A stretch of 38,561 nt of DNA from a virus: the IMG/VR virus record IMGVR_UViG_3300012931_000896, positions 1 through 38,561 of that record. One strand, written 5' to 3'. Shown here in pieces: positions 2,759-38,561 of the stretch. The notes under the pieces are model-generated. The model was not told the origin of the DNA and did not search any database. It saw nothing but the letters and a program-made list of their open reading frames with translations. A program made the translations under genes and the position numbers. The first letter of the stretch is position 1; each line of letters begins with the position of its first letter.

Positions 2759-3111
2759 ATTGATTCTCCTTGTTTAATAATTTCCTCAATCGATAAATCA
2801 TTAAATTCCACGTATCCACACCCATTATTACAGCTCCCACAACCAGAACCACACAGCCATTTTGATTTAAACTGCTCATTGTCAGGCACAGCCAGTAACT
2901 TCATCATTTTACCGCATGCCGGGCATGCCTTTTGAGGCCGAATCCTTATGGGGCGATCTTTTTTAATCAGAACAATATCTTTCAATGTTTTATAGTTATC
3001 TTTGTATGCCCGTAAATCATTGACAGTCTTGCCCTGCGCCGTCATGTGATCAATAATATTAAGGGCGGTCTGAATTTCCTTAATGTTCCATGCCTCAAAG
3101 GTGTCTGTCAT
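2755..3111 (-). CDS. Zinc-ribbon protein of the tail cluster
   Basis: This is a 118-residue protein from the ATG at 3111, which overlaps the TGA of the tail hub gene. An alternative ATG lies five codons upstream. The C-terminal half has two Cys clusters, CPACGKMM and then a dense CGSGCGSCNNGC run, which together look like a zinc ribbon with extra cysteines. The N-terminal half is helical (IKEIQTALNIIDHM). A metal-binding protein between tail genes could be a small structural or assembly factor. No specific family is recognised. Confidence 0.6.
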   Translation of the reverse strand: MTDTFEAWNIKEIQTALNIIDHMTAQGKTVNDLRAYKDNYKTLKDIVLIKKDRPIRIRPQKACPACGKMMKLLAVPDNEQFKSKWLCGSGCGSCNNGCGYVEFNDLSIEEIIKQGESI

Positions 3112-5999
3112 GTTCCACACTGCCATTGATAGGTTTTACTGCCCTCCACATAACATCTTGTTTGCCCTTCAGGCACAGGCCCTGGTGTCCCATGTGCTTC
3201 ACAGGGGCCGCCGACGCAGCTTTCCTCACAAGTGGTGCCTTCTTCATAATAGCCGCACCAATCGTCCAGATATTTATATTGACCAATTATAAACTCAAAA
3301 ATACCAGTTCCCTCCCATCCGCCGCATTCATCAATTAATACCCATGTCCCTGCGGTGTTGCGGATTTCAGCCGTGACCTCGCTTCCACACGCATCAGTAA
3401 TCGTGACAATGGCAACAACCGCATAATCCGTCACGCACGCCCCGCTCGCACAGATCAATGTTGCGCTCTGGCCGTCAGTTGTATAACTCTGCACGCCATT
3501 GATCGTATACCCCAGGCTTGAGGTCTCGAAGGTATAAGGTGCAACACCTCCGGTCACATAGATGCCGATACTGCCACCCGCCACTATCGTATCTGCGGTA
3601 TTTTCATCATCCAGGGCAAATGTCTCCGCATTATGACATTCGTCACATTGTTCCCAGCACGCATCAATTGCCGCCTGTTTTATCTCCGCATATTTCTCCC
3701 AGAATTCCGGCGTCCCCAAAGTTAGGTCATAATCCTGGACAACAATCTTAGAAATTGTCCGCCCGCTGGCCCCGTCATAATTTTGCGTGGTGCCATATGT
3801 CGATATTTCTCCTGTGCATAGGGTCTCGCAGTCGCAATCATCATATTCCAGGGCAGTCGCAAATCTACCGGCCAACGCAGCAGGGCTGGGGTCAGAGGAG
3901 ACGCTGTTTGTCATGCACAATTTATCCTTATCAGGATCATCCGGATCATTAGGATCAGTTCCTCTCGCAATCTCCTCAAGGTCAGTCAATTCATCTTCGT
4001 CAGTATCGGGATTTGTAGGATCGGTCCCTTTCTCGTATTCCTCAAGGTCAGTCAATCCATCTTCGTCATAGTCCCCGGTCCCGTCCTGGCTCAAATCACC
4101 AAAATTATCAATTTCCCAGGCATCATCCATCCCGTCATTATCGCTGTCAGTGATATCTTCATCGTCCGGCCCAGTGGCGGAACCATCGCTGGCAGGATCA
4201 TAAGTCGAATCATCTCCCCCGACGTCGCCATACCCTCCATCCTGGTCATCGTCTAACTCAGAGGGATAATCATCTGCGGGGACTGTGTTGTCCTCTATGC
4301 TTATCTCAATGCTGGCATTGGCCCCTTCCTCACGGGTAGAGGCAATCCAGGCCATAATCTTGCATTTTCCCAACAAAGTACCGGTAAAGGTATTCAACGC
4401 CGCTCCCTGGGCAATATAATTAACCAGCAATGCCGTCCCTGCGTCCAGGTCAGTAGACAAGGCAATCGTCTTGCCCTCATGTGAGCTATACAGGTTAGAT
4501 CCGTATGCCGCGCCATCCTCATCGGCCCTGCGTACGGATGATACGCTTTTAGGGTACATTGAGATCTCGCATTGAGTAAGACCGGCAATGTTATCTATAG
4601 CTATTGTATCCTCATTTTTAATTGACACCGTCCCTAATCTGGCCGACGTCCAACTAAGGGCGCCGCGTTTTGTGGCGATAATGCTCATGTATACATATCG
4701 CCCGGCTGTGACAGGGCCGCTCTCCTCAACGTACACGATCAATTGCGATGTCCCGCCTTTTTCTATGGAGGAAGGAGCTGCAGTCAGCGCTATTGAAGGA
4801 GGGCACTGGCAAGGGTTGTCGATATAAACAATCGCAGCGCCCTCCTGCCCTTCCACATCTGCCGTAATCGTTACATCATCAGCGGTTGATCCCGCGGTCA
4901 GGTAATTTACCGCAATTCCATCGGAGTAATAGGTGACAACGAGCGTCTGGTTGCAATAAGACAATTTATTGGTAAGAGTGATAGTGTTGTCGTCAGTTGT
5001 ATATCCTCCAGCCGCCAGGTTGCTGCGACGGCCTGTGTCTGATGCCGCCCAGACGCCCACAACTGAGCTGGGCTCGGAAGCAACCACAACGCTATGAAAC
5101 GTCGCGGCTTGTTGTTTCTCGTTTTTAATCAGGATTCGTTTTGTATTCGATTTGGAAGATGACAGAGAGGCATAGGCGCTGTTTTTAGTCCAGCTCACGA
5201 CCTGATTATTAATCGGATTTCCCTCTGAGTCTTTAACCTGGGCATAGATGGCAGATTTTGAGACGCCATCAGCGGAAAGACATTCGTCCGCGACTGTAAC
5301 CGTCACGGAATAACTGCCCTGAGTCCCGGTCGGGGTAATGGAGATGCGATTGCCGAATGTAGGCCATTCAGGGCTCTCGGTAATCTCAGCGATATCATCA
5401 TCAGTAATGGTCACATCCGCCGTTGTCGGCGCGTAATCAACCTGTTTAATGCACAAATGCCCCAGCCGATCGGTAGTCACCTTCGCCCCGGCAAACCCGG
5501 CAAGTTCGGTGATCACGTCAATGGGATAAACACCTTCCACCTCATAAGTTGATGGATAAATCACAAAATCATCAGTATCGCTGTAATCCGGGTCCCAGGC
5601 AAGACCGACCAGGTCGCACATCTCCTCGCAAACGCCGAAAAATGTGGTCTGAGTTGTCCAGGTCTTTGTAACCTTAACGGCAAAGGGCTCGGCCAGCAGT
5701 GCCGTCAGGGATCTGCCCCATACGCCGGTCATCAGGTCGGATCGAGTTGTAGAGGCCAGGGCAGGCCGCTCGATAAAAAACATCCCCTGGCTTACAAAGC
5801 TTGTCCCGTTTTTTGTGAGGATCTCGATCTCTGGTGATTCGGATATCTGCGTAAAATCAAGGGAGGCATATAAATCAGAGTCTACAATATCCAGCGTCAT
5901 CTCCCGGCAATAGCTATCCAGCGAGCAGGCAATGGAAAACCCGCTCACCTTGTTGGAGATGTCAACGCTGTTTAATAATATCTGCCAGCCGTATGCCAT
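3108..5999 (-). CDS. Large tail hub/tip protein with Ig-like and calcium-repeat domains
   Basis: This is a 963-residue protein. Residues 1-200 look like a siphovirus tail-hub module (N-terminal MAYGWQILLNSVDISNKV). Residues about 235-330 resemble a Big_1/invasin-type Ig domain (SKSAIYAQVKDSEGNPINNQ, then VVSW), followed by a second Ig-like module around 400-560. Residues about 610-695 are Asp-rich repeats of the form DSDNDGMDDAWE, DYDEDGLTDLEEYEKGTDP, DTDEDELTDLEEIARGTDP, which match thrombospondin type-3 calcium-binding repeats of secreted bacterial proteins. A third Ig-like module and a Cys-rich tail (EEGTTCEESCVGGPCEAHG) follow. The gene lies downstream of the tape measure, where the hub or tip protein is expected. 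The extra domains probably extend it outward to touch the host surface (inference). Confidence 0.68.
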   Translation of the reverse strand: MAYGWQILLNSVDISNKVSGFSIACSLDSYCREMTLDIVDSDLYASLDFTQISESPEIEILTKNGTSFVSQGMFFIERPALASTTRSDLMTGVWGRSLTALLAEPFAVKVTKTWTTQTTFFGVCEEMCDLVGLAWDPDYSDTDDFVIYPSTYEVEGVYPIDVITELAGFAGAKVTTDRLGHLCIKQVDYAPTTADVTITDDDIAEITESPEWPTFGNRISITPTGTQGSYSVTVTVADECLSADGVSKSAIYAQVKDSEGNPINNQVVSWTKNSAYASLSSSKSNTKRILIKNEKQQAATFHSVVVASEPSSVVGVWAASDTGRRSNLAAGGYTTDDNTITLTNKLSYCNQTLVVTYYSDGIAVNYLTAGSTADDVTITADVEGQEGAAIVYIDNPCQCPPSIALTAAPSSIEKGGTSQLIVYVEESGPVTAGRYVYMSIIATKRGALSWTSARLGTVSIKNEDTIAIDNIAGLTQCEISMYPKSVSSVRRADEDGAAYGSNLYSSHEGKTIALSTDLDAGTALLVNYIAQGAALNTFTGTLLGKCKIMAWIASTREEGANASIEISIEDNTVPADDYPSELDDDQDGGYGDVGGDDSTYDPASDGSATGPDDEDITDSDNDGMDDAWEIDNFGDLSQDGTGDYDEDGLTDLEEYEKGTDPTNPDTDEDELTDLEEIARGTDPNDPDDPDKDKLCMTNSVSSDPSPAALAGRFATALEYDDCDCETLCTGEISTYGTTQNYDGASGRTISKIVVQDYDLTLGTPEFWEKYAEIKQAAIDACWEQCDECHNAETFALDDENTADTIVAGGSIGIYVTGGVAPYTFETSSLGYTINGVQSYTTDGQSATLICASGACVTDYAVVAIVTITDACGSEVTAEIRNTAGTWVLIDECGGWEGTGIFEFIIGQYKYLDDWCGYYEEGTTCEESCVGGPCEAHGTPGPVPEGQTRCYVEGSKTYQWQCGT

Positions 6000-16510: not shown

Positions 16511-18049
16511 TCAAATCTTTTCTCCCTTGCTTGCCGCATACCCTGTCAGGCCCGCTGCAAACATCGCCTTTGCAAGCAGATCCTGAAACTCTCGCGTGTC
16601 CAGATCCGGATATAGCCCGTAAATCTTCTCGCCGATCTCCTCGAAGGATTTGGCGTTTTCGATCACGGTTAAAACCGGGGCCAATAGAACAGAAATGGCC
16701 TCCTGGCCGTCGATAGCTCCCTGCTGCGATAATTTGTCCGCGTTCGCCTGAGAAAATCGATTGTGGTACTTATTTGTCGTTTCAGCGAATTGACCTGCGG
16801 GCACGCTGCCCTGCTGAATCCCTTTGTTCGGGGTTACGATATCCTCACCCTCTTCAGGTTCCGGGATATTGTATGTCTCGTAAAAATATCTTTTGCCGAC
16901 CGGAAGGCCGATGTCCCTGGTCAAAAGCATATCCCGGTCCGCCAGGGGTTTCAGGTCTTTCTCAGCCTCAACCCTGGTCTGGATTTTCGGGTATTCAGTA
17001 ACGCCAGGGAAGTTGTAATCGACAATCCAGCGGATGAGGGTATTGTTCAGACACTCATCCAGGAGATCCGCGTCCGCCTCGGTAATATCGTCCTTTGTCT
17101 CGTCCTGTGTGCTCTCGTTGCCCAGCTTGCCGGGCGTGCCTTCCGTGGTGCCGGTCTGGCCCAGCACGGCCTTGGATATCTGCTTATCCATGTACTCGCA
17201 CAGGGACTCGTATGTGACAGTTCCGGTGCGCGTGGCCTCCAGCAGTTCAATTGCCATGTTGTCGGGGATCTTGACCCCCGTTTCCGAGTGTATCGCGTCA
17301 ATCGCATCCAGGAGGGCCTGCTGTTGCGCGGGCTCGGTCCCCGGCGGGTATTTGCCGACGCCTGTGGGCATGCCGAACTTCTCCAGGAATACCAGCCAGA
17401 ATTTGATGCCGTTTTTCTTGAACCACACCGGCCACCAGAGTTTCTGGCCCAGGCCCTTGCCGTAAGGGTTATCGCTCGAACCATAGGTAAACTGGATAAA
17501 CTTGCGGTCCGGGACCGGCTCGCCCTCTATCATGTTTGAAGGAGTAAGAAGCCTTAACTCGCGGTCGATGGAAAAGGAAAACCTGCGAGGATGTTTGGCC
17601 CTGAGTTTTGCGGGAACGATCATCCCATCGCGCACGGTCCATATCACCTCGGCAACGTAAAATCCGTACAGGATGCCCTGCAAAAGCTCCATCCTTGCCT
17701 GGTCGAAATTGATGTTTACCAGGGCAGCGCTAACGAAGTCGGCTATCTTTTGATTTTGTGTTTCACCCTGCGCCTTGCGCCTCGCGCCCTGAGCCTCTCC
17801 GGCGATAGCTGGAGCTATGCTCCAGTCCTTGCCTACAACGGACAAATAACGGGTTTGCAGGACAGATCCGGCATGCGGATCGCGGTCAACCTCGTCATAG
17901 AGTTTAAGCCCTTTCCCCTGGGATTCCGTCCGCAGCGTGGGGTCAGGGTTTTCCAGGCGTTTGAGCCACCCGGCGAAGATATCAATATCCTTTGCCGCAG
18001 TGGCTATCTCATCGGTGATCGGCTGTTTTGTGGTCTCTTCTATCGCCAT
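16511..18049 (-). CDS. Portal protein (Mu gp29-like, DUF935)
   Basis: This is a 512-residue protein. The DUF935 portal pattern is clear: DPHAGSVLQTRYLSVVGKDW near residue 60, RKFIQFTYGSSDNPYGKGLG near residue 190, WKKNG-like WFKKNGIKFWLVFLEKFGMP, then SKAVLGQTGTTEGTPG. The portal ring is the gate for DNA packaging and the docking site for terminase and neck. A Gln/Ala-rich insert (EAQGARRKAQGETQNQK, near residue 95) is encoded by a CCCTGCGCCTTGCGCC-type repeat. Bases 17571-17608 of this gene are copied exactly at 23697-23734. Confidence 0.94.
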   Translation of the reverse strand: MAIEETTKQPITDEIATAAKDIDIFAGWLKRLENPDPTLRTESQGKGLKLYDEVDRDPHAGSVLQTRYLSVVGKDWSIAPAIAGEAQGARRKAQGETQNQKIADFVSAALVNINFDQARMELLQGILYGFYVAEVIWTVRDGMIVPAKLRAKHPRRFSFSIDRELRLLTPSNMIEGEPVPDRKFIQFTYGSSDNPYGKGLGQKLWWPVWFKKNGIKFWLVFLEKFGMPTGVGKYPPGTEPAQQQALLDAIDAIHSETGVKIPDNMAIELLEATRTGTVTYESLCEYMDKQISKAVLGQTGTTEGTPGKLGNESTQDETKDDITEADADLLDECLNNTLIRWIVDYNFPGVTEYPKIQTRVEAEKDLKPLADRDMLLTRDIGLPVGKRYFYETYNIPEPEEGEDIVTPNKGIQQGSVPAGQFAETTNKYHNRFSQANADKLSQQGAIDGQEAISVLLAPVLTVIENAKSFEEIGEKIYGLYPDLDTREFQDLLAKAMFAAGLTGYAASKGEKI

Positions 18050-22555: not shown

Positions 22556-23239
22556 TTATAAGCCAAAAAACTTATTGCAGATCCCAATTGCCAAACCGAT
22601 AACAATTGCGATCAATATGGCAAATAATAGTTTTTTGATCCATCCCATGTCCGTCACCATCTGCTTCATTTGCGTCGTCAGTTCCTTTACGGTACTTTCG
22701 AGTATTCCAACAGAGGTGACTACATCTGCTAATGTTGGCGATCTCATTTTTACCATCCTTTCTACATCCTCTTCAGGAAATCGGTCATAGCCTTGAAATT
22801 TTCCCGAATAAGGTTTTTGTGCTTTTTCTCCTAAGCGATGAAATATTACCGTACAAAATGATTCGGCATACATCAACTCAAAAGGTTCGCTAGATGGATT
22901 AAAAATAGAAACAAAAATCCTGCCACCATATCCAGGGTCTATTTGTGGACCGCCAAACCAAATGATGCCTTGGCGTGTAATACTTGACCTGATTCCATAA
23001 GTAGCGGCAAGCTTATCAGATAATTGAATGCGTTCAAGTGTTTCAATCTCTGCCCATTCACCTGTTTTCAATAGAAATTTTTCTTTTTGAGGATCGATGA
23101 TTCCTTTGCCGGCCATTAAAATACGGCCGACCTTAAAATCATAACTGGCAGGTTCAAGCCGCGATTTGTCGAAATCACTGATTTTGATATCGCCTGATTG
23201 GATTGCTTTTGAAATTTCACTATCGCTTAAGATGGTCAT
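22556..23239 (-). CDS. Membrane-anchored dUTPase/dCTP-deaminase fold protein
   Basis: This is a 227-residue protein. Residues 1-150 match the dCTP deaminase/dUTPase family: MTILSDSEISKAIQSGDIKI, EPASYDFKVGRI, then YGIRSSITRQG (Arg84, Ser85, Ser86, Arg89) and QIDPGYGGRIFVSIFN (Asp101). The glutamate that dCTP deaminases use for catalysis (in a VLEF-type motif) is replaced by Ser111, so deamination is doubtful, while the Asp of dUTPases is kept. A coiled coil (about 165-200) and one membrane helix (about 203-222, LLFAILIAIVIGLAIGI) are added at the C-terminus. Likely roles are control of dUTP or sensing of nucleotides at the membrane (inference). The start overlaps the stop of the YezD-like gene. 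Confidence 0.78.
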   Translation of the reverse strand: MTILSDSEISKAIQSGDIKISDFDKSRLEPASYDFKVGRILMAGKGIIDPQKEKFLLKTGEWAEIETLERIQLSDKLAATYGIRSSITRQGIIWFGGPQIDPGYGGRIFVSIFNPSSEPFELMYAESFCTVIFHRLGEKAQKPYSGKFQGYDRFPEEDVERMVKMRSPTLADVVTSVGILESTVKELTTQMKQMVTDMGWIKKLLFAILIAIVIGLAIGICNKFFGL

Positions 23240-23453: not shown

Positions 23454-23765
23454 TTATTTCCATCCCTCAATCTCGATCAACAGATCGACTTCATGTTTGA
23501 TCTTTTCCAAATCCTTAAGCCCTGAGCCACCACATTGATTAAACCGGCAAATCCGCTTAATGATACAGCCTTGTAGAAAACTCAGTTTGTTTTTAGTAAT
23601 AAACTCAACCGGCTGGATTTTGAAACCTTTATAATGGGAGCCGCCCACCTGCACATCCAGTGCTGATTTTTTCTTCCAATCATTGTCCATCAGATCGAAA
23701 AGGAAAACCTGCGAGGATGTTTGGCCCTGAGTTTGTGCTGATTTTTTCTTCCAATCATTGTCCAT
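23454..23765 (-). CDS. DUF3310 (SaV-like) protein with duplicated N-terminus
   Basis: This is a 103-residue protein. The C-terminal 80 residues, GGSHYKGFKIQPVEFITKNK followed by LSFLQGCIIKRICRF and LKDLEKIKHEVDLLIE, are typical of DUF3310, a phage family of unclear function sometimes called nucleotide-kinase-like. The start at 23765 follows GGAGGGATCTG. The first 25 residues repeat the native N-terminus: MDNDWKKKSA occurs at residue 1 and again at residue 26, separated by QTQGQTSSQVFLFDL, which is encoded by a copied piece of the portal gene. The ancestral start was probably the second ATG at 23690. Its start overlaps the Lar-like gene by eleven bases. Confidence 0.8.
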   Translation of the reverse strand: MDNDWKKKSAQTQGQTSSQVFLFDLMDNDWKKKSALDVQVGGSHYKGFKIQPVEFITKNKLSFLQGCIIKRICRFNQCGGSGLKDLEKIKHEVDLLIEIEGWK

Positions 23766-23771
23766 CAGATC
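23660..23771. repeat. 37-bp direct duplication flanking a 38-bp portal-gene fragment
   Basis: Copy A (23660-23696) and copy B (23735-23771) are identical 37-bp blocks beginning GTGCTGATTTTTTCTTCC. The 38 bases between them (23697-23734) are identical to 17571-17608 within the portal gene, in the same orientation. The added unit is 75 bp, exactly 25 codons, and keeps the reading frame. Confidence 0.92.
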
Positions 23772-23982
23772 CCTCCAGCGTTTTATTTTCCGGACCTGAC
23801 AAAAGATCAATACCAAATGGCCCCATATCATTAAATGTAGCTCCGCACCCATCGCATTTAAAATTAACAGAAAAACCGCCATGCGGCCCTTCAAGAAACT
23901 CTTTTGATTTGCAAAACGGGCATCCGTCCTTAAAAAACTTGCCTTTATTAGCCCAGTGATCAATCCCCTCGTTTGTATTCAT
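23755..23982 (-). CDS. Lar-like zinc-ribbon protein
   Basis: This is a 75-residue protein with a CPFC pair (Cys21, Cys24) and a CDGCG pair (Cys43, Cys46) spaced as in the Lar restriction-alleviation family (CPFCKSKEF ... VNFKCDGCGATF). Lar of the Rac prophage reduces restriction of incoming DNA by type I systems; whether this relative does so is not known. The ATG overlaps the TAA of the radical-SAM gene by one base and its end overlaps the DUF3310 gene, so the three form one coupled unit. Confidence 0.7.
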   Translation of the reverse strand: MNTNEGIDHWANKGKFFKDGCPFCKSKEFLEGPHGGFSVNFKCDGCGATFNDMGPFGIDLLSGPENKTLEGSDGQ

Positions 23983-25941: not shown

Positions 25942-26766
25942 TTAAATCCCCTTATCTCGGAGGACAGTCTTTTCTTTCGCCCAGGTTTTAACCTGGAGCT
26001 TTGATAATGCCCGCACACTAGGCTTTAGTTCGTCCGGTATCTCCCTGTAACCATGCTGATTTAAGTTGAGCAATTCAGCCCGCGAGATCAGCATGAGATT
26101 TTCGTCTTCACAGCAGGTTTGATCGCTATTGATAAACGCCACGACCATACCCTTCGGCACTGGTCCGTGCGCTTGCTCCCATACATGCACATGCTTAAGT
26201 TTGTAACGGGTCGTGAATCCGGTATATGGATCGCGTTCGGCGACTTTTATATAAATAAACCCATTGGCATCTACTCTCTCCGACCCGACCGGCTTCCGGT
26301 TTGGAGGATTATTCCCTTTTTTAAAGCTACCCTTATTCGCAGAGGTCAAGCCTTGTCCCTTTGTGCCTCCGTTCCAGGGTTTATGCCCCTGAGGAAATCG
26401 ACCGGTAAGGCCGGAGGTGATGCTCCGATTGCTTACAAATGTTTTCATCTGTTGCCGTGTCCTGGCGATCCCATATCGGGCATTAAAAATATCGGTCATC
26501 TCCTCAACGCTTCGGCCAGTGTAATTTTCCTTGATGAAATTTATCTGTTCCTCAGTAAAAAGCCGAATTCTATTTATGAATCGATCGGCAACCTTTCTTC
26601 CGCATCTGATTTTATTATTTGACAATGCCGAATGAATTGCCGTTTCGGTTTTCGCCGTTTGGAACCAACTATTGAACGCTTCCGTGAGGCGGTGGACATT
26701 CATGAATTGATAGCCTCTTCGCAAAAACTCAAGTTGCTCGGCTGTATATTTATTTTTTCGGCTCAT
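25942..26766 (-). CDS. HNH homing-type endonuclease
   Basis: This is a 274-residue protein from the ATG at 26766 (AAGGATCTGGCT precedes it). The N-terminal part has two helix-turn-helix-like segments (YTAEQLEFLRRGYQFMNVHR; TEEQINFIKENYTGRSVEEM) that bind DNA. A basic linker (GTKGQGLTSANKGSFKKGNN) leads to the HNH nuclease: LKHVHVWEQAHGPVPKGMVV, FINSDQTCCEDENLMLISR, ELLNLN. Normal HNH enzymes of this type have Asn and His in places that here read Ser, Asp and Cys (FINSDQTCCEDENL), so activity is plausible but not sure. It may be a mobile endonuclease gene in the phage. Confidence 0.85.
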   Translation of the reverse strand: MSRKNKYTAEQLEFLRRGYQFMNVHRLTEAFNSWFQTAKTETAIHSALSNNKIRCGRKVADRFINRIRLFTEEQINFIKENYTGRSVEEMTDIFNARYGIARTRQQMKTFVSNRSITSGLTGRFPQGHKPWNGGTKGQGLTSANKGSFKKGNNPPNRKPVGSERVDANGFIYIKVAERDPYTGFTTRYKLKHVHVWEQAHGPVPKGMVVAFINSDQTCCEDENLMLISRAELLNLNQHGYREIPDELKPSVRALSKLQVKTWAKEKTVLRDKGI

Positions 26767-27184
26767 AGCCAGATCCTTCAAGCCCCAGCATTTTTACAGG
26801 ATTTTTAATAAGATTTTTTTTAACAGCTACCTGAGCATCCAATGCCAGTCGGGCATTAAAGATAATTTGAGTTGCCAGATTGCTCACTGCTTTGGCGCGG
26901 TTTATTTCCTCTTTTAATGCCTCTCCAGCAAGAGCTTTATTTGTTAAGCGGTCCATCTCAGCAAACAAATGATCGTTCAGATCGATCAGTTTATTATTCA
27001 TTTTAGCCCCTCCTTGTGCTCCTTTCGGCAAATAATCACGATCTGTTTCTATTATATGGGTATGCAGTCCCTCGGCATCTGTCTCAATTTCGTCGCATCC
27101 ATCGCATTTGAGTTTTTTGCCGTCGAACACTGCTTTAGCCAAACAATCCTCATATTTTATGCAATCCGGGTTTCTCATTTTCAT
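26750..27184 (-). CDS. Cys-rich segment fused to a conserved phage helical protein
   Basis: The reading frame codes for 144 residues that seem to be two proteins. Residues 1-60 carry a zinc-type Cys cluster (NPDCIKYEDCLAKAVFDGKK then LKCDGCDEIET). Residues 62-144 (MNNKLIDLNDHLFAEMDRLT, GEALKEEINRAKAVSNLATQ, IIFNARLALDAQ) are a common phage protein that normally stands alone. The internal ATG at 27001 is preceded by AAGGAGGGGCTAAA, so the second protein can be made by itself. The junction LPKGAQGGAK is exactly this ribosome site read as protein. The two genes have probably been fused by loss of a stop codon. Confidence 0.68.
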   Translation of the reverse strand: MKMRNPDCIKYEDCLAKAVFDGKKLKCDGCDEIETDAEGLHTHIIETDRDYLPKGAQGGAKMNNKLIDLNDHLFAEMDRLTNKALAGEALKEEINRAKAVSNLATQIIFNARLALDAQVAVKKNLIKNPVKMLGLEGSGYEPKK

Positions 27185-29004: not shown

Positions 29005-29526
29005 CTACTTGCAATTTCTTTCCTCAAGCGAAGCGCTCTTTCCCTCCTCCTTGATTTCCCACGAGAACACTTCTTTCCTCTTTCGTTCCGTCCCCACCAG
29101 GGCAAGCTTTTCCTTCGACCATTTATCCAATGCGTCCCAATCTACGCTCTCCACAACCTTCACTGCCTCAGTAAAGCCGTGTTCTTTTAAATTCTCTAAA
29201 ACCCATTTCGCCTTTCTGACACGCTCCTCAATGGTAAACAACAGCGACCCATGTTCAACCTCAACCCGTTCCTCGCCGTCAAATATCAACCCAGAATTCT
29301 TTTTCATGAGGGCAACAAGATCCTTTTCCAGACACTTCAAATCTTCCGTGGCCCCAGCAATTTGCGTCTCGAAATCCTTTGTAATCTCTTCAATTTTCTG
29401 GCCCATCACCACGGTATGACCTTTAATGCAATCCTCCCGGAATGAGATCTCCGACAGCAGATCATCCGCATAGTTAAGCAGGACCGCTTTCTCAGTTGGT
29501 ATTATTTGCTTTTTAGTCTTTTTCAT
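29005..29526 (-). CDS. Host-nuclease inhibitor Gam-like
   Basis: This is a 173-residue protein from the ATG at 29526 (AAGGAATAAA precedes it). It has the Mu Gam layout: an N-terminal long helix pair (LNYADDLLSEISFREDCIKG, VVMGQKIEEITKDFETQIAG), then a small beta part (SGLIFDGEERVEVEHGSLLF) and VLENLKEHGFTEAVKVVESV. Gam binds linear DNA ends and shields them from RecBCD; it is a Ku relative. The last residues (GKSASLEERNCK) are encoded by a CTCAAGCGAAGCGCTC repeat. It lies upstream of GemA, as in Mu. Confidence 0.85.
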   Translation of the reverse strand: MKKTKKQIIPTEKAVLLNYADDLLSEISFREDCIKGHTVVMGQKIEEITKDFETQIAGATEDLKCLEKDLVALMKKNSGLIFDGEERVEVEHGSLLFTIEERVRKAKWVLENLKEHGFTEAVKVVESVDWDALDKWSKEKLALVGTERKRKEVFSWEIKEEGKSASLEERNCK

Positions 29527-29548
29527 TTTATTCCTTCTACCTTTTCCC

Positions 29549-29626
29549 TCAAGCGAAGCGCTCCTCAAGCCCCGTAAGGGGCGCTCCCTTTCTCCTCAAG
29601 CGCAGCGCTCCCTTGCAAATTCAAAC
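29549..29626. repeat. Tandem CTCAAGCGAAGCGCTCC cluster
   Basis: Three related words stand in line: CTCAAGCGAAGCGCTCC, CTCAAGCCCCGTAAGGGGCG and CTCAAGCGCAGCGCTCCC. Each is a palindrome with a different centre. They supply the C-terminal tail of the gene at 29565-29993 (GSAALEEKGSAPYGA). Confidence 0.8.
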
Positions 29627-30388: not shown

Positions 30389-30937
30389 CTATTCCTCCAT
30401 CTTCCCCAGTGCCGTCCGTGCCTCGATAATCGCCGTTTGAGCTCTATTCAGGGCATCTTCAACGGCCTCCCTTTTCCTAAGTCTGATATTTCTTAGCTTC
30501 TCTGCCTTTTCCTTATCCCGCGGCATCTCCACTGGATCATATATCATCTGCCATCTGCCGTTTTTCAGGTGCCTCACAACCCCTTGTCTGGCCAGCATCT
30601 GCAGCCACTCCTTGGCATACGCCTCGCCCGCCCCGGCCAGTTCCTGGAGATCCTCTATGGTAACAGCCCGGTTTGCCCTCAATATCCGCCACATCCGCTC
30701 TCGGATCTCCGGCGCCTTTTTTGTCCTTACTGTTTGATACAGCCCGTGTTCGATCCGCTCTATCCCCCCAGTCTTAAGGATTTCGTATATCGCCTTTTTT
30801 ACCCGGTCCTTATCATGATAGGTCTGGACCCTGGTTCCAAGCGCATTGACAACATGGTCAACACTGAATACCCCGTTCAGAGTCTGAAGCGCCTCTCTGA
30901 CCGCAGCCGTAATCCCTGTGTGATGTTTAGGCGGCAT
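30389..30937 (-). CDS. Winged-helix-like early protein
   Basis: This is a 182-residue protein after the MuB-like gene, whose stop overlaps its ATG by one base. Residues 1-70 have a winged-helix form (ALQTLNGVFSVDHVVNALGT, DRVKKAIYEILKTGGIERIE then HGLYQT). Residues 75-125 look like a second HTH (RMWRILRANRAVTIEDLQEL, AYAKEWLQMLARQGVVRHLK). The last part is a charged helix (KLRNIRLRKREAVEDALNRA). It is probably a DNA-binding partner in transposition or early control (inference). Confidence 0.7.
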   Translation of the reverse strand: MPPKHHTGITAAVREALQTLNGVFSVDHVVNALGTRVQTYHDKDRVKKAIYEILKTGGIERIEHGLYQTVRTKKAPEIRERMWRILRANRAVTIEDLQELAGAGEAYAKEWLQMLARQGVVRHLKNGRWQMIYDPVEMPRDKEKAEKLRNIRLRKREAVEDALNRAQTAIIEARTALGKMEE

Positions 30938-37105: not shown

Positions 37106-37182
<77 letters not shown>

Positions 37183-37329: not shown

Positions 37330-37651
37330 GAATAAGAATCAGCAATGTCCGGTTAGGATCTTGCATATAAAAAAAGCCTGCCTGACGGCATGGGAGGCCC
37401 TTTTTTTTAAGAGTGAAATGGGCGGCCTGCTGAGGGCCTGACATTAAGCATGTAACCGCGGGCGGCGGAGCGTCTCAGGCGCTTGTCAGGGCTTAAGATC
37501 CAGCGAAATCTGACGGTTCCTCTCCGCCCGCTTTATGGCGACTTATGCCGGAATATTGCATTTAAGCCATTTCATCTTTTAAAAAAAGGGCCTCCCATGC
37601 CTTGAGGATTCTTCTATGCAAGATACTAACCGGACATTACTGAATAAGAAT
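37330..37651. mobile_element. MITE-like inverted-repeat element with 10-bp target duplication
   Basis: Arms at 37341-37421 and 37568-37641 are imperfect inverted repeats of about 75-80 bp (outer 26 bases AGCAATGTCCGGTTAGGATC... against AGTAATGTCCGGTTAGTATC..., inner GGCATGGGAGGCCCTTTTTT in both). The perfect 10-bp direct repeat GAATAAGAAT flanks the element at 37330-37339 and 37642-37651. The core of about 145 bp contains GCGGGCGG / CCGCCCGC and no gene. This is what a non-autonomous transposon leaves behind. It also explains the 470-base gap between tRNA and xerD; 37183-37329 shows nothing else. Confidence 0.78.
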
Positions 37652-37658
37652 AGAAGTT

Positions 37659-38561
37659 CTATGGTCTTGGGTGAAACTTTTCGTGAACCTGTTTCAGCCT
37701 TTCCCTGCTGACATGCGTATATATCTGAGTGGTTGAAATATCAGCGTGCCCCAGCATAACCTGGACCGACCTGAGGTCAGCCCCGCCTTCAAGGAGATGA
37801 CTCGCAAAGGAATGTCTCAGGCTATGGGGGGTAATTCTTTTTTTAATCCCGGCGATTACTCCATATTTTCCTATGATCTTCCAGAAACCCTGTCGGGATA
37901 TTTGTTTCCCCCTGGAATTGACGAAAAGGCTTTGTGAATTCCTGCCGTGCAATAACCCTGGCCTCGCGTCATATATATAGGATTTAAGCGCCTCCCTGGC
38001 CTTGTCTCCCATGGGAACCATCCTCTCCTTGGCGCCCTTGCCGATAGTCCTTACATAGCCTGGCTCCAGATTAATATTGACTAAGCGGAGACCTGTAAGC
38101 TCCGACACCCTGAGGCCGGTCGCATAGAGCAATTCAAGCATTGCCTTGTCTCTCAGTCCCAGGTTGTTTGAAGGGTCAGGCTGGGCAAGGAGAAGGTCCA
38201 CCTCTTCTCCGGAAAGGATATCAGGGAGCCTTTGCGGGAGCTTCATGGACTCCAGAAGCCTTGTGGGGCTGTCTGTCATCTTTCCATTGTTTATAAGGAA
38301 TCTGAAGAACATCTTCAGGGCGGAGACGCCCCTGGCGATGCTCCTTAAGGATAGAGATCCTTCCAGAGATTCTATATATCCGGTGATATCCTTCCTTGTT
38401 GCCTTGACCGGAGAAACGCCTTTTTTATCAAGATATCCTAAAAATCTGATCAGGTCGCGGCTGTAGGACTGTATGGTATTATCCGCAAGACCCCTTTCCA
38501 CCCTCAGGTGGTTGATGAACTGGTCTGCCAGGATATTGGTTTGATCTTTTCTAAAAATCAT
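37659..38561 (-). CDS. xerD: Tyrosine recombinase XerD/XerC family
   Basis: This is a 300-residue protein, complete to the last base of the window. The N-terminal SAM-like domain (residues 8-95) is followed by the catalytic domain with Arg151 (ATGLRVSELTGL), Lys175 (GKGAKER), His246 and Arg249 (HSLRHSFASHLLEGG), His272 (MLGHADISTTQIYTH) and Tyr281. All active residues are present. XerC/D resolve chromosome dimers at dif. Length and motifs suggest the XerD branch, but XerC cannot be excluded. It belongs to the host chromosome; a phage integrase is unlikely because the phage uses a DDE transposase. Confidence 0.88.
   Translation of the reverse strand: MIFRKDQTNILADQFINHLRVERGLADNTIQSYSRDLIRFLGYLDKKGVSPVKATRKDITGYIESLEGSLSLRSIARGVSALKMFFRFLINNGKMTDSPTRLLESMKLPQRLPDILSGEEVDLLLAQPDPSNNLGLRDKAMLELLYATGLRVSELTGLRLVNINLEPGYVRTIGKGAKERMVPMGDKAREALKSYIYDARPGLLHGRNSQSLFVNSRGKQISRQGFWKIIGKYGVIAGIKKRITPHSLRHSFASHLLEGGADLRSVQVMLGHADISTTQIYTHVSRERLKQVHEKFHPRP

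Follow-up and report, generated by a model that had tools for sequence, protein, structure and literature searches.

A 38-bp fragment of a Mu-like prophage's own portal gene between 37-bp target duplications: a possible scar of off-target CRISPR spacer integration

The insertion described here lies at the start of a DUF3310 gene in a Mu-like prophage, within a virus record of 38561 bases that is called the window below. The gene set of the window contains portal, terminase, F-like head protein, Mu transposase, Gam and GemA, and the features used in the argument are collected in Table 1. The DUF3310 ORF overlaps an upstream Lar-like ORF and, read along its own strand, presents the Shine-Dalgarno (SD) sequence GGAGG, 6 nt, the ATG at 23765-23763, the residues MDNDWKKKSA, 13 residues encoded by the insert, DL, MDNDWKKKSA a second time and then the DUF3310 core. 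The SD stands just outside the upstream repeat, and the downstream repeat carries the same ATG with no SD preceding it. Matches of the ORF to PF11753 (E=3.1e-5) and to PHROG 236, 'nucleotide kinase' (E=3e-13), cover solely the part that follows the insertion.

Table 1. Positions in the window of the insertion, its donor and the genes considered in the text
Feature	Coordinates	Strand	Remarks
Upstream (gene-direction) 37-bp duplication copy	23735-23771	-	Holds the SD-served ATG and the stop codon of the Lar-like ORF
38-bp spacer-like insert	23697-23734	-	Identical to portal bases 17571-17608
Downstream 37-bp duplication copy	23660-23696	-	Original N-terminal codons (MDNDWKKKSA); ATG 23690-23688 without SD
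Donor ('protospacer')	17571-17608	-	Within portal ORF 16511-18049; Portal_Mu PF06074 E=3.7e-104
DUF3310 ORF, extended form	23454-23765	-	103 aa (78 aa counted from ATG 23690)
Shine-Dalgarno GGAGG	23772-23776 (read 23776-23772)	-	Abuts the outer duplication border
Lar-like upstream ORF	23755-23982	-	Lar_restr_allev match weak, below cut-off; overlaps DUF3310 ORF
Mu Gam-like end-binding protein	29005-29568	-	PF07352 E=1.3e-18; PHROG 491
XerD-like recombinase	37659-38561	-	Window end, read as host flank; used for host placement

Several further features of the window were recorded. Scattered between 6007 and 30334 are short arrays of GTTCGATGTTGGACGTT-like units (family D1), in about a dozen copies, as well as REP-like CCCTGAGCCTGTCGAAGGG copies (D2). 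A tandem 64-nt near-duplicate (80%) is found at 3939-4068 inside a long ORF (3108-5999), a dCTP deaminase-like protein (22556-23239) carries a C-terminal addition with a hydrophobic stretch at its end, and the protein encoded at 30389-30937, in the phage early region, gives weak AbiEi-type matches (E 5e-6, PADLOC). A 41-bp inverted repeat (85%) with arms 145 nt apart, at 37381-37607 between tRNA-Met (37106-37182) and XerD, is probably near the prophage-host border.

The two 37-mers are 100% identical, with a start-to-start spacing of 75, and the bases that separate them match the portal gene at 38 of 38 positions, in the same orientation and with 6126 bp between donor and insert. A self-match of 38 bp is not expected by chance in the window (expected number ~1e-14). 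These comparisons confirm all coordinates in a first-pass annotation of the sequence, which had described two 37-bp copies enclosing a portal-identical piece found again some 6 kb away. Neither terminal inverted repeats nor a mobile element were found between the duplications, which enclose only the 38 bp, all portal-derived; the absence of transposon ends noted in the same annotation is thus supported. When the donor was compared with the target flanks, the microhomology was 0 bp and both junctions were blunt. The 5' border base is G at both borders, which has a chance of 5.7%. Overall, the insertion is self-derived, in frame and accompanied by duplication of its target, and it is apparently recent, since there are zero differences over 37 + 38 bp.

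The added unit of 75 bp corresponds to 25 stop-free codons, so that the DUF3310 frame is still open and the ORF passes from 78 to 103 codons with its SD intact, in line with what had been annotated. The stop of the Lar-like ORF falls within the outer copy of the repeat, and therefore both overlapping genes are intact after the event. That the portal DNA was copied 'in frame', as the annotation also stated, holds for the DUF3310 frame and not for the portal's own: the portal frame gives KLRAKHPRRFSF at the donor, whereas the DUF3310 ORF gives QTQGQTSSQVFLF from the same bases. The insert is read one frame off, therefore no portal peptide is present in the DUF3310 ORF, and the idea of a new N-terminus grown from the phage's own coding DNA applies at the DNA level only. 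A longer DUF3310 protein would presumably be made.

Alignment with relatives had been proposed to recover the ancestral form. It shows that two near relatives of the DUF3310 protein (L003 and L004) start with M-TALDVQVGG directly at the core, that the N-terminal parts of other relatives are unrelated, and that the present extension is absent from all relatives examined. A direct pre-insertion allele was not found, because the nearest portal relatives are 74% identical at best. Among 203 related viral loci (2.69 Mb) no other locus shows a clean pair of repeats enclosing a templated insert, the single match of this survey being a low-complexity array.

The host was placed by a single flanking gene. 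The XerD of the window is 82% identical to that of the MAG JAFGIC01 (G001), and 60-69% identical to the next Desulfobacterota MAG group, which points to an uncultured sulfate-reducer-type Desulfobacterota near G001 as the probable host. We then considered 17 genomes of the bacterial family nearest to the probable host, as stand-ins for the host itself. Cas1 is present in 10 of the 17, and the arrays beside cas1 fall into a class with 32-nt repeats (spacers mostly 33-35) and a class of 35-37 nt. Repeats of 37 nt, separated by spacers of 35-39 nt, were seen in G011 (12 spacers), at two loci in G012 (5 spacers at one and 7 at the other) and in G017 (2 spacers, 37 and 38 nt). Among these 37-nt loci, three were assigned a type, namely III-B (with a PrimPol-Cas1 protein), III-A and III-D/E-like. 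The III-B locus, in G011, encodes a 705-aa fusion of a CRISPR-associated primase-polymerase with Cas1 (L275:8607-10721). In the nearest relative, G001, Cas1 and Cas2 lie beside Csx20 and a CARF protein, an arrangement typical of type III, and no CRISPR array was found on the 4.1-kb contig concerned. None of the 12 CRISPR repeats of the clade matches the 37-mer of the window significantly (best p = 0.014 among 12 tests), none of the 170 clade spacers matches the window, and the repeat core is absent from the 17 family genomes at up to 3 mismatches.

With a repeat of 37, an insert of 38 and a repeat of 37, the locus is built like a CRISPR array with a single spacer. During adaptation, Cas1-Cas2 attaches each 3' end of a prespacer to one border of the repeat, on opposite strands, and gap filling then doubles the repeat. 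The same reaction at a non-array site would leave a blunt, spacer-length insert between two repeat-length copies of the target. The duplication has the length of the type III repeats of G011, G012 and G017 and the insert falls within the 35-39 nt range of the spacers in the 37-nt arrays, a post hoc comparison against several array types (32, 35, 36 and 37) that concerns family members and not the true host. We regard off-target spacer integration by the host Cas1-Cas2 as the best explanation, with a confidence a little above even. It fits better than the other readings in accounting jointly for the blunt ends, the full target duplication, the lengths and the donor, and zero microhomology at both junctions is as expected for transesterification. 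The lack of another templated case in the 2.69 Mb of related viral loci also speaks for it. The unlikeness of the 37-mer to the clade repeats, the clade spacers with no match to the window and the absence of a clear leader signal at the borders speak against it. We infer both that Cas1-Cas2 was the agent and that such a system exists in the true host.

The event could have proceeded as follows. During infection or induction, a host adaptation complex, probably that of a type III locus, would trim a 38-bp portal fragment as a prespacer from replicating phage DNA. Instead of entering a host array, this prespacer would go into a phage genome where the DUF3310 gene begins, through two strand transfers, one per strand, that each attack a G and are separated by 37 bp. 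Filling of the gaps would then duplicate these 37 bp in the manner of a CRISPR repeat, giving a 37/38/37 'neo-array'. We propose that the insertion survived because its 75 bp add 25 stop-free codons and preserve the SD and the end of the upstream gene. At known off-target sites of Cas1-Cas2, G is preferred (56.5%) and serves both borders, these sites resembling the leader-repeat junction (Kim et al., PMC6895254). No PAM is recognisable at the donor, which we take as neutral since more than 95% of new type III spacers in Thermus derive from phage DNA with no PAM preference (PMC7515739). With a type III leader junction matrix built on five leaders, the SD-side border falls, among window positions, at the 82nd-96th percentile and its counterpart at the 26th-72nd. 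By eye the SD side resembles type III leader ends (purine-rich, e.g. AAGGAGGTGG|G in G017); this likeness is not counted as evidence because it reaches only the 82nd-96th percentile. Taken as a whole, the stronger statement that this is a natural, completed neo-CRISPR event, in which host type III adaptation put the phage's own DNA into a gene where it was kept as a 25-codon extension, has in our judgment an even chance of being correct.

Break repair with fragment capture is a rival mechanism that we consider doubtful: opposite-strand nicks 37 bp apart would be followed by fill-in of the overhangs and blunt ligation of the 38-bp fragment, helped by the phage Mu Gam or by host Ku. Blunt junctions are compatible with end joining, and Mu Gam is a Ku-like end binder reported to promote it; the presence of a Gam gene in this phage therefore keeps end joining alive, whereas Ku was detected in just 2 of the 17 family genomes. 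Staggered-break fill-in yields tandem duplications in eukaryotes, as set out in PMC8355091, which cites Vaughn & Bennetzen 2014. The related Mu-like phage locus L125:4200-4296 contains a perfect 42-bp duplication with 13 nt of filler, which shows that other kinds of duplication occur in related phages; however, this filler is untemplated and the lengths (42/13) differ from those found here. This duplication immediately precedes a terminator-like stretch. Break repair predicts neither the 37 and 38 lengths nor their match to the CRISPR units of the host family.

Replicative template switching, the mechanism put forward in the first-pass annotation, would produce the same anatomy: the fork would switch from the DUF3310 start to the portal gene, copy 38 nt there and resume 37 bp upstream of its point of departure. 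In its favour, donor and target share a replicon and an orientation, and 3 matching bases are present one base off each junction (GAT before the first junction, and TGC shifted by one at the second). Template switches usually use some microhomology, and here there is none at either junction. Two switches across 6 kb would also be needed, and the lengths, which are those of type III arrays in the family of the probable host, are not predicted. This mechanism is thus not well supported, and we consider it improbable.

An assembly or library chimera is very unlikely. In its favour, no second record with the exact repeat core was found in viral_contigs, a search from which very near records were possibly left out. 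Against it, the junctions have no sequence common to the donor or the target flanks, so an assembler would not join the pieces without reads, and the frame, the SD and both overlapping genes are preserved. Finally, a mini-CRISPR array or RNA anti-CRISPR that is carried by the phage and works with host Cas proteins shares the one-spacer anatomy and has precedents in viral mini-arrays (PMC8616872), but we give it next to no credence because the 'repeat' is unlike the clade CRISPR repeats, is itself part of a coding region, holding an SD-served start codon as well as the end of an overlapping gene, and would flank a spacer that targets the phage itself.

Rfam gave no match at the insertion locus, and PADLOC, run on five window proteins, gave nothing at the DUF3310 gene. 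Mu-type transposition was set aside, as no ends are present and the target duplication made by Mu is 5 bp. The HNH endonuclease encoded at 25942-26781 could have made two nicks, and nothing ties it to the site. A DGR or retroelement was also discarded, no reverse transcriptase being recognised among the window proteins searched, a subset of the ORFs.

If off-target Cas1-Cas2 integration is the correct reading, spacers would be integrated outside arrays in nature, in the genome of the enemy and with a tolerated outcome, and CRISPR adaptation would act as a mutagen of the viruses that it records. Such scars would then form a fossil record of the CRISPR-bearing hosts that were infected. Note that the signature is searchable, as two exact duplications of 28-37 bp that enclose a piece of 28-42 bp from that same genome, and could be used to estimate how frequently Cas1-Cas2 goes astray and to ask whether coding sequence is gained by phages along this route. 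Should this reading be wrong, the locus would remain a clear example, in a phage, of a short insertion that is templated and accompanied by duplication of its target.

We found no natural scar of this kind in a phage coding gene in the open-licence literature; integration outside arrays is documented from overexpression and in vitro work (Nivala 2018, as cited in PMC11788318 and PMC9456107; PMC6895254; PMC10011333; PMC13034035). Among known systems, RNA anti-CRISPRs and solitary repeat units (PMC10651486) likewise place a repeat-sized unit in a phage; unlike them, the unit described here has no likeness to clade repeats, is intragenic and is duplicated around an insert. Staggered-break fill-in also duplicates its target and may leave blunt ends, but it is described in eukaryotes, with no fixed CRISPR-like lengths (PMC8355091). 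Virus-borne mini-CRISPR arrays (PMC8616872) likewise consist of one spacer flanked by two repeats within a viral genome, but their repeats are mostly host-like and they are proposed to act against competitor viruses, whereas the present insertion has a repeat made of coding DNA and a self-derived spacer. The off-target sites of S. thermophilus Cas1-Cas2 (PMC6895254) share the G at the borders; they were obtained in vitro with a type II-A system and are likely half-site products, where the present one would be a completed full-site product. In the neo-CRISPR loci of non-canonical Cas1-Cas2 integration (Nivala et al. 2018, as relayed by the citing articles), spacer-sized DNA is likewise placed outside an array by the adaptation complex. 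Those loci are reported from Cas1-Cas2 overexpression, whereas the present insertion is natural, lies in a phage gene, consists of the phage's own DNA, keeps the frame and belongs to a lineage with type III systems. As viral mini-arrays mostly have host-like repeats, which are absent here, the insertion behaves as a scar of the neo-CRISPR kind and falls outside the functional mini-arrays.
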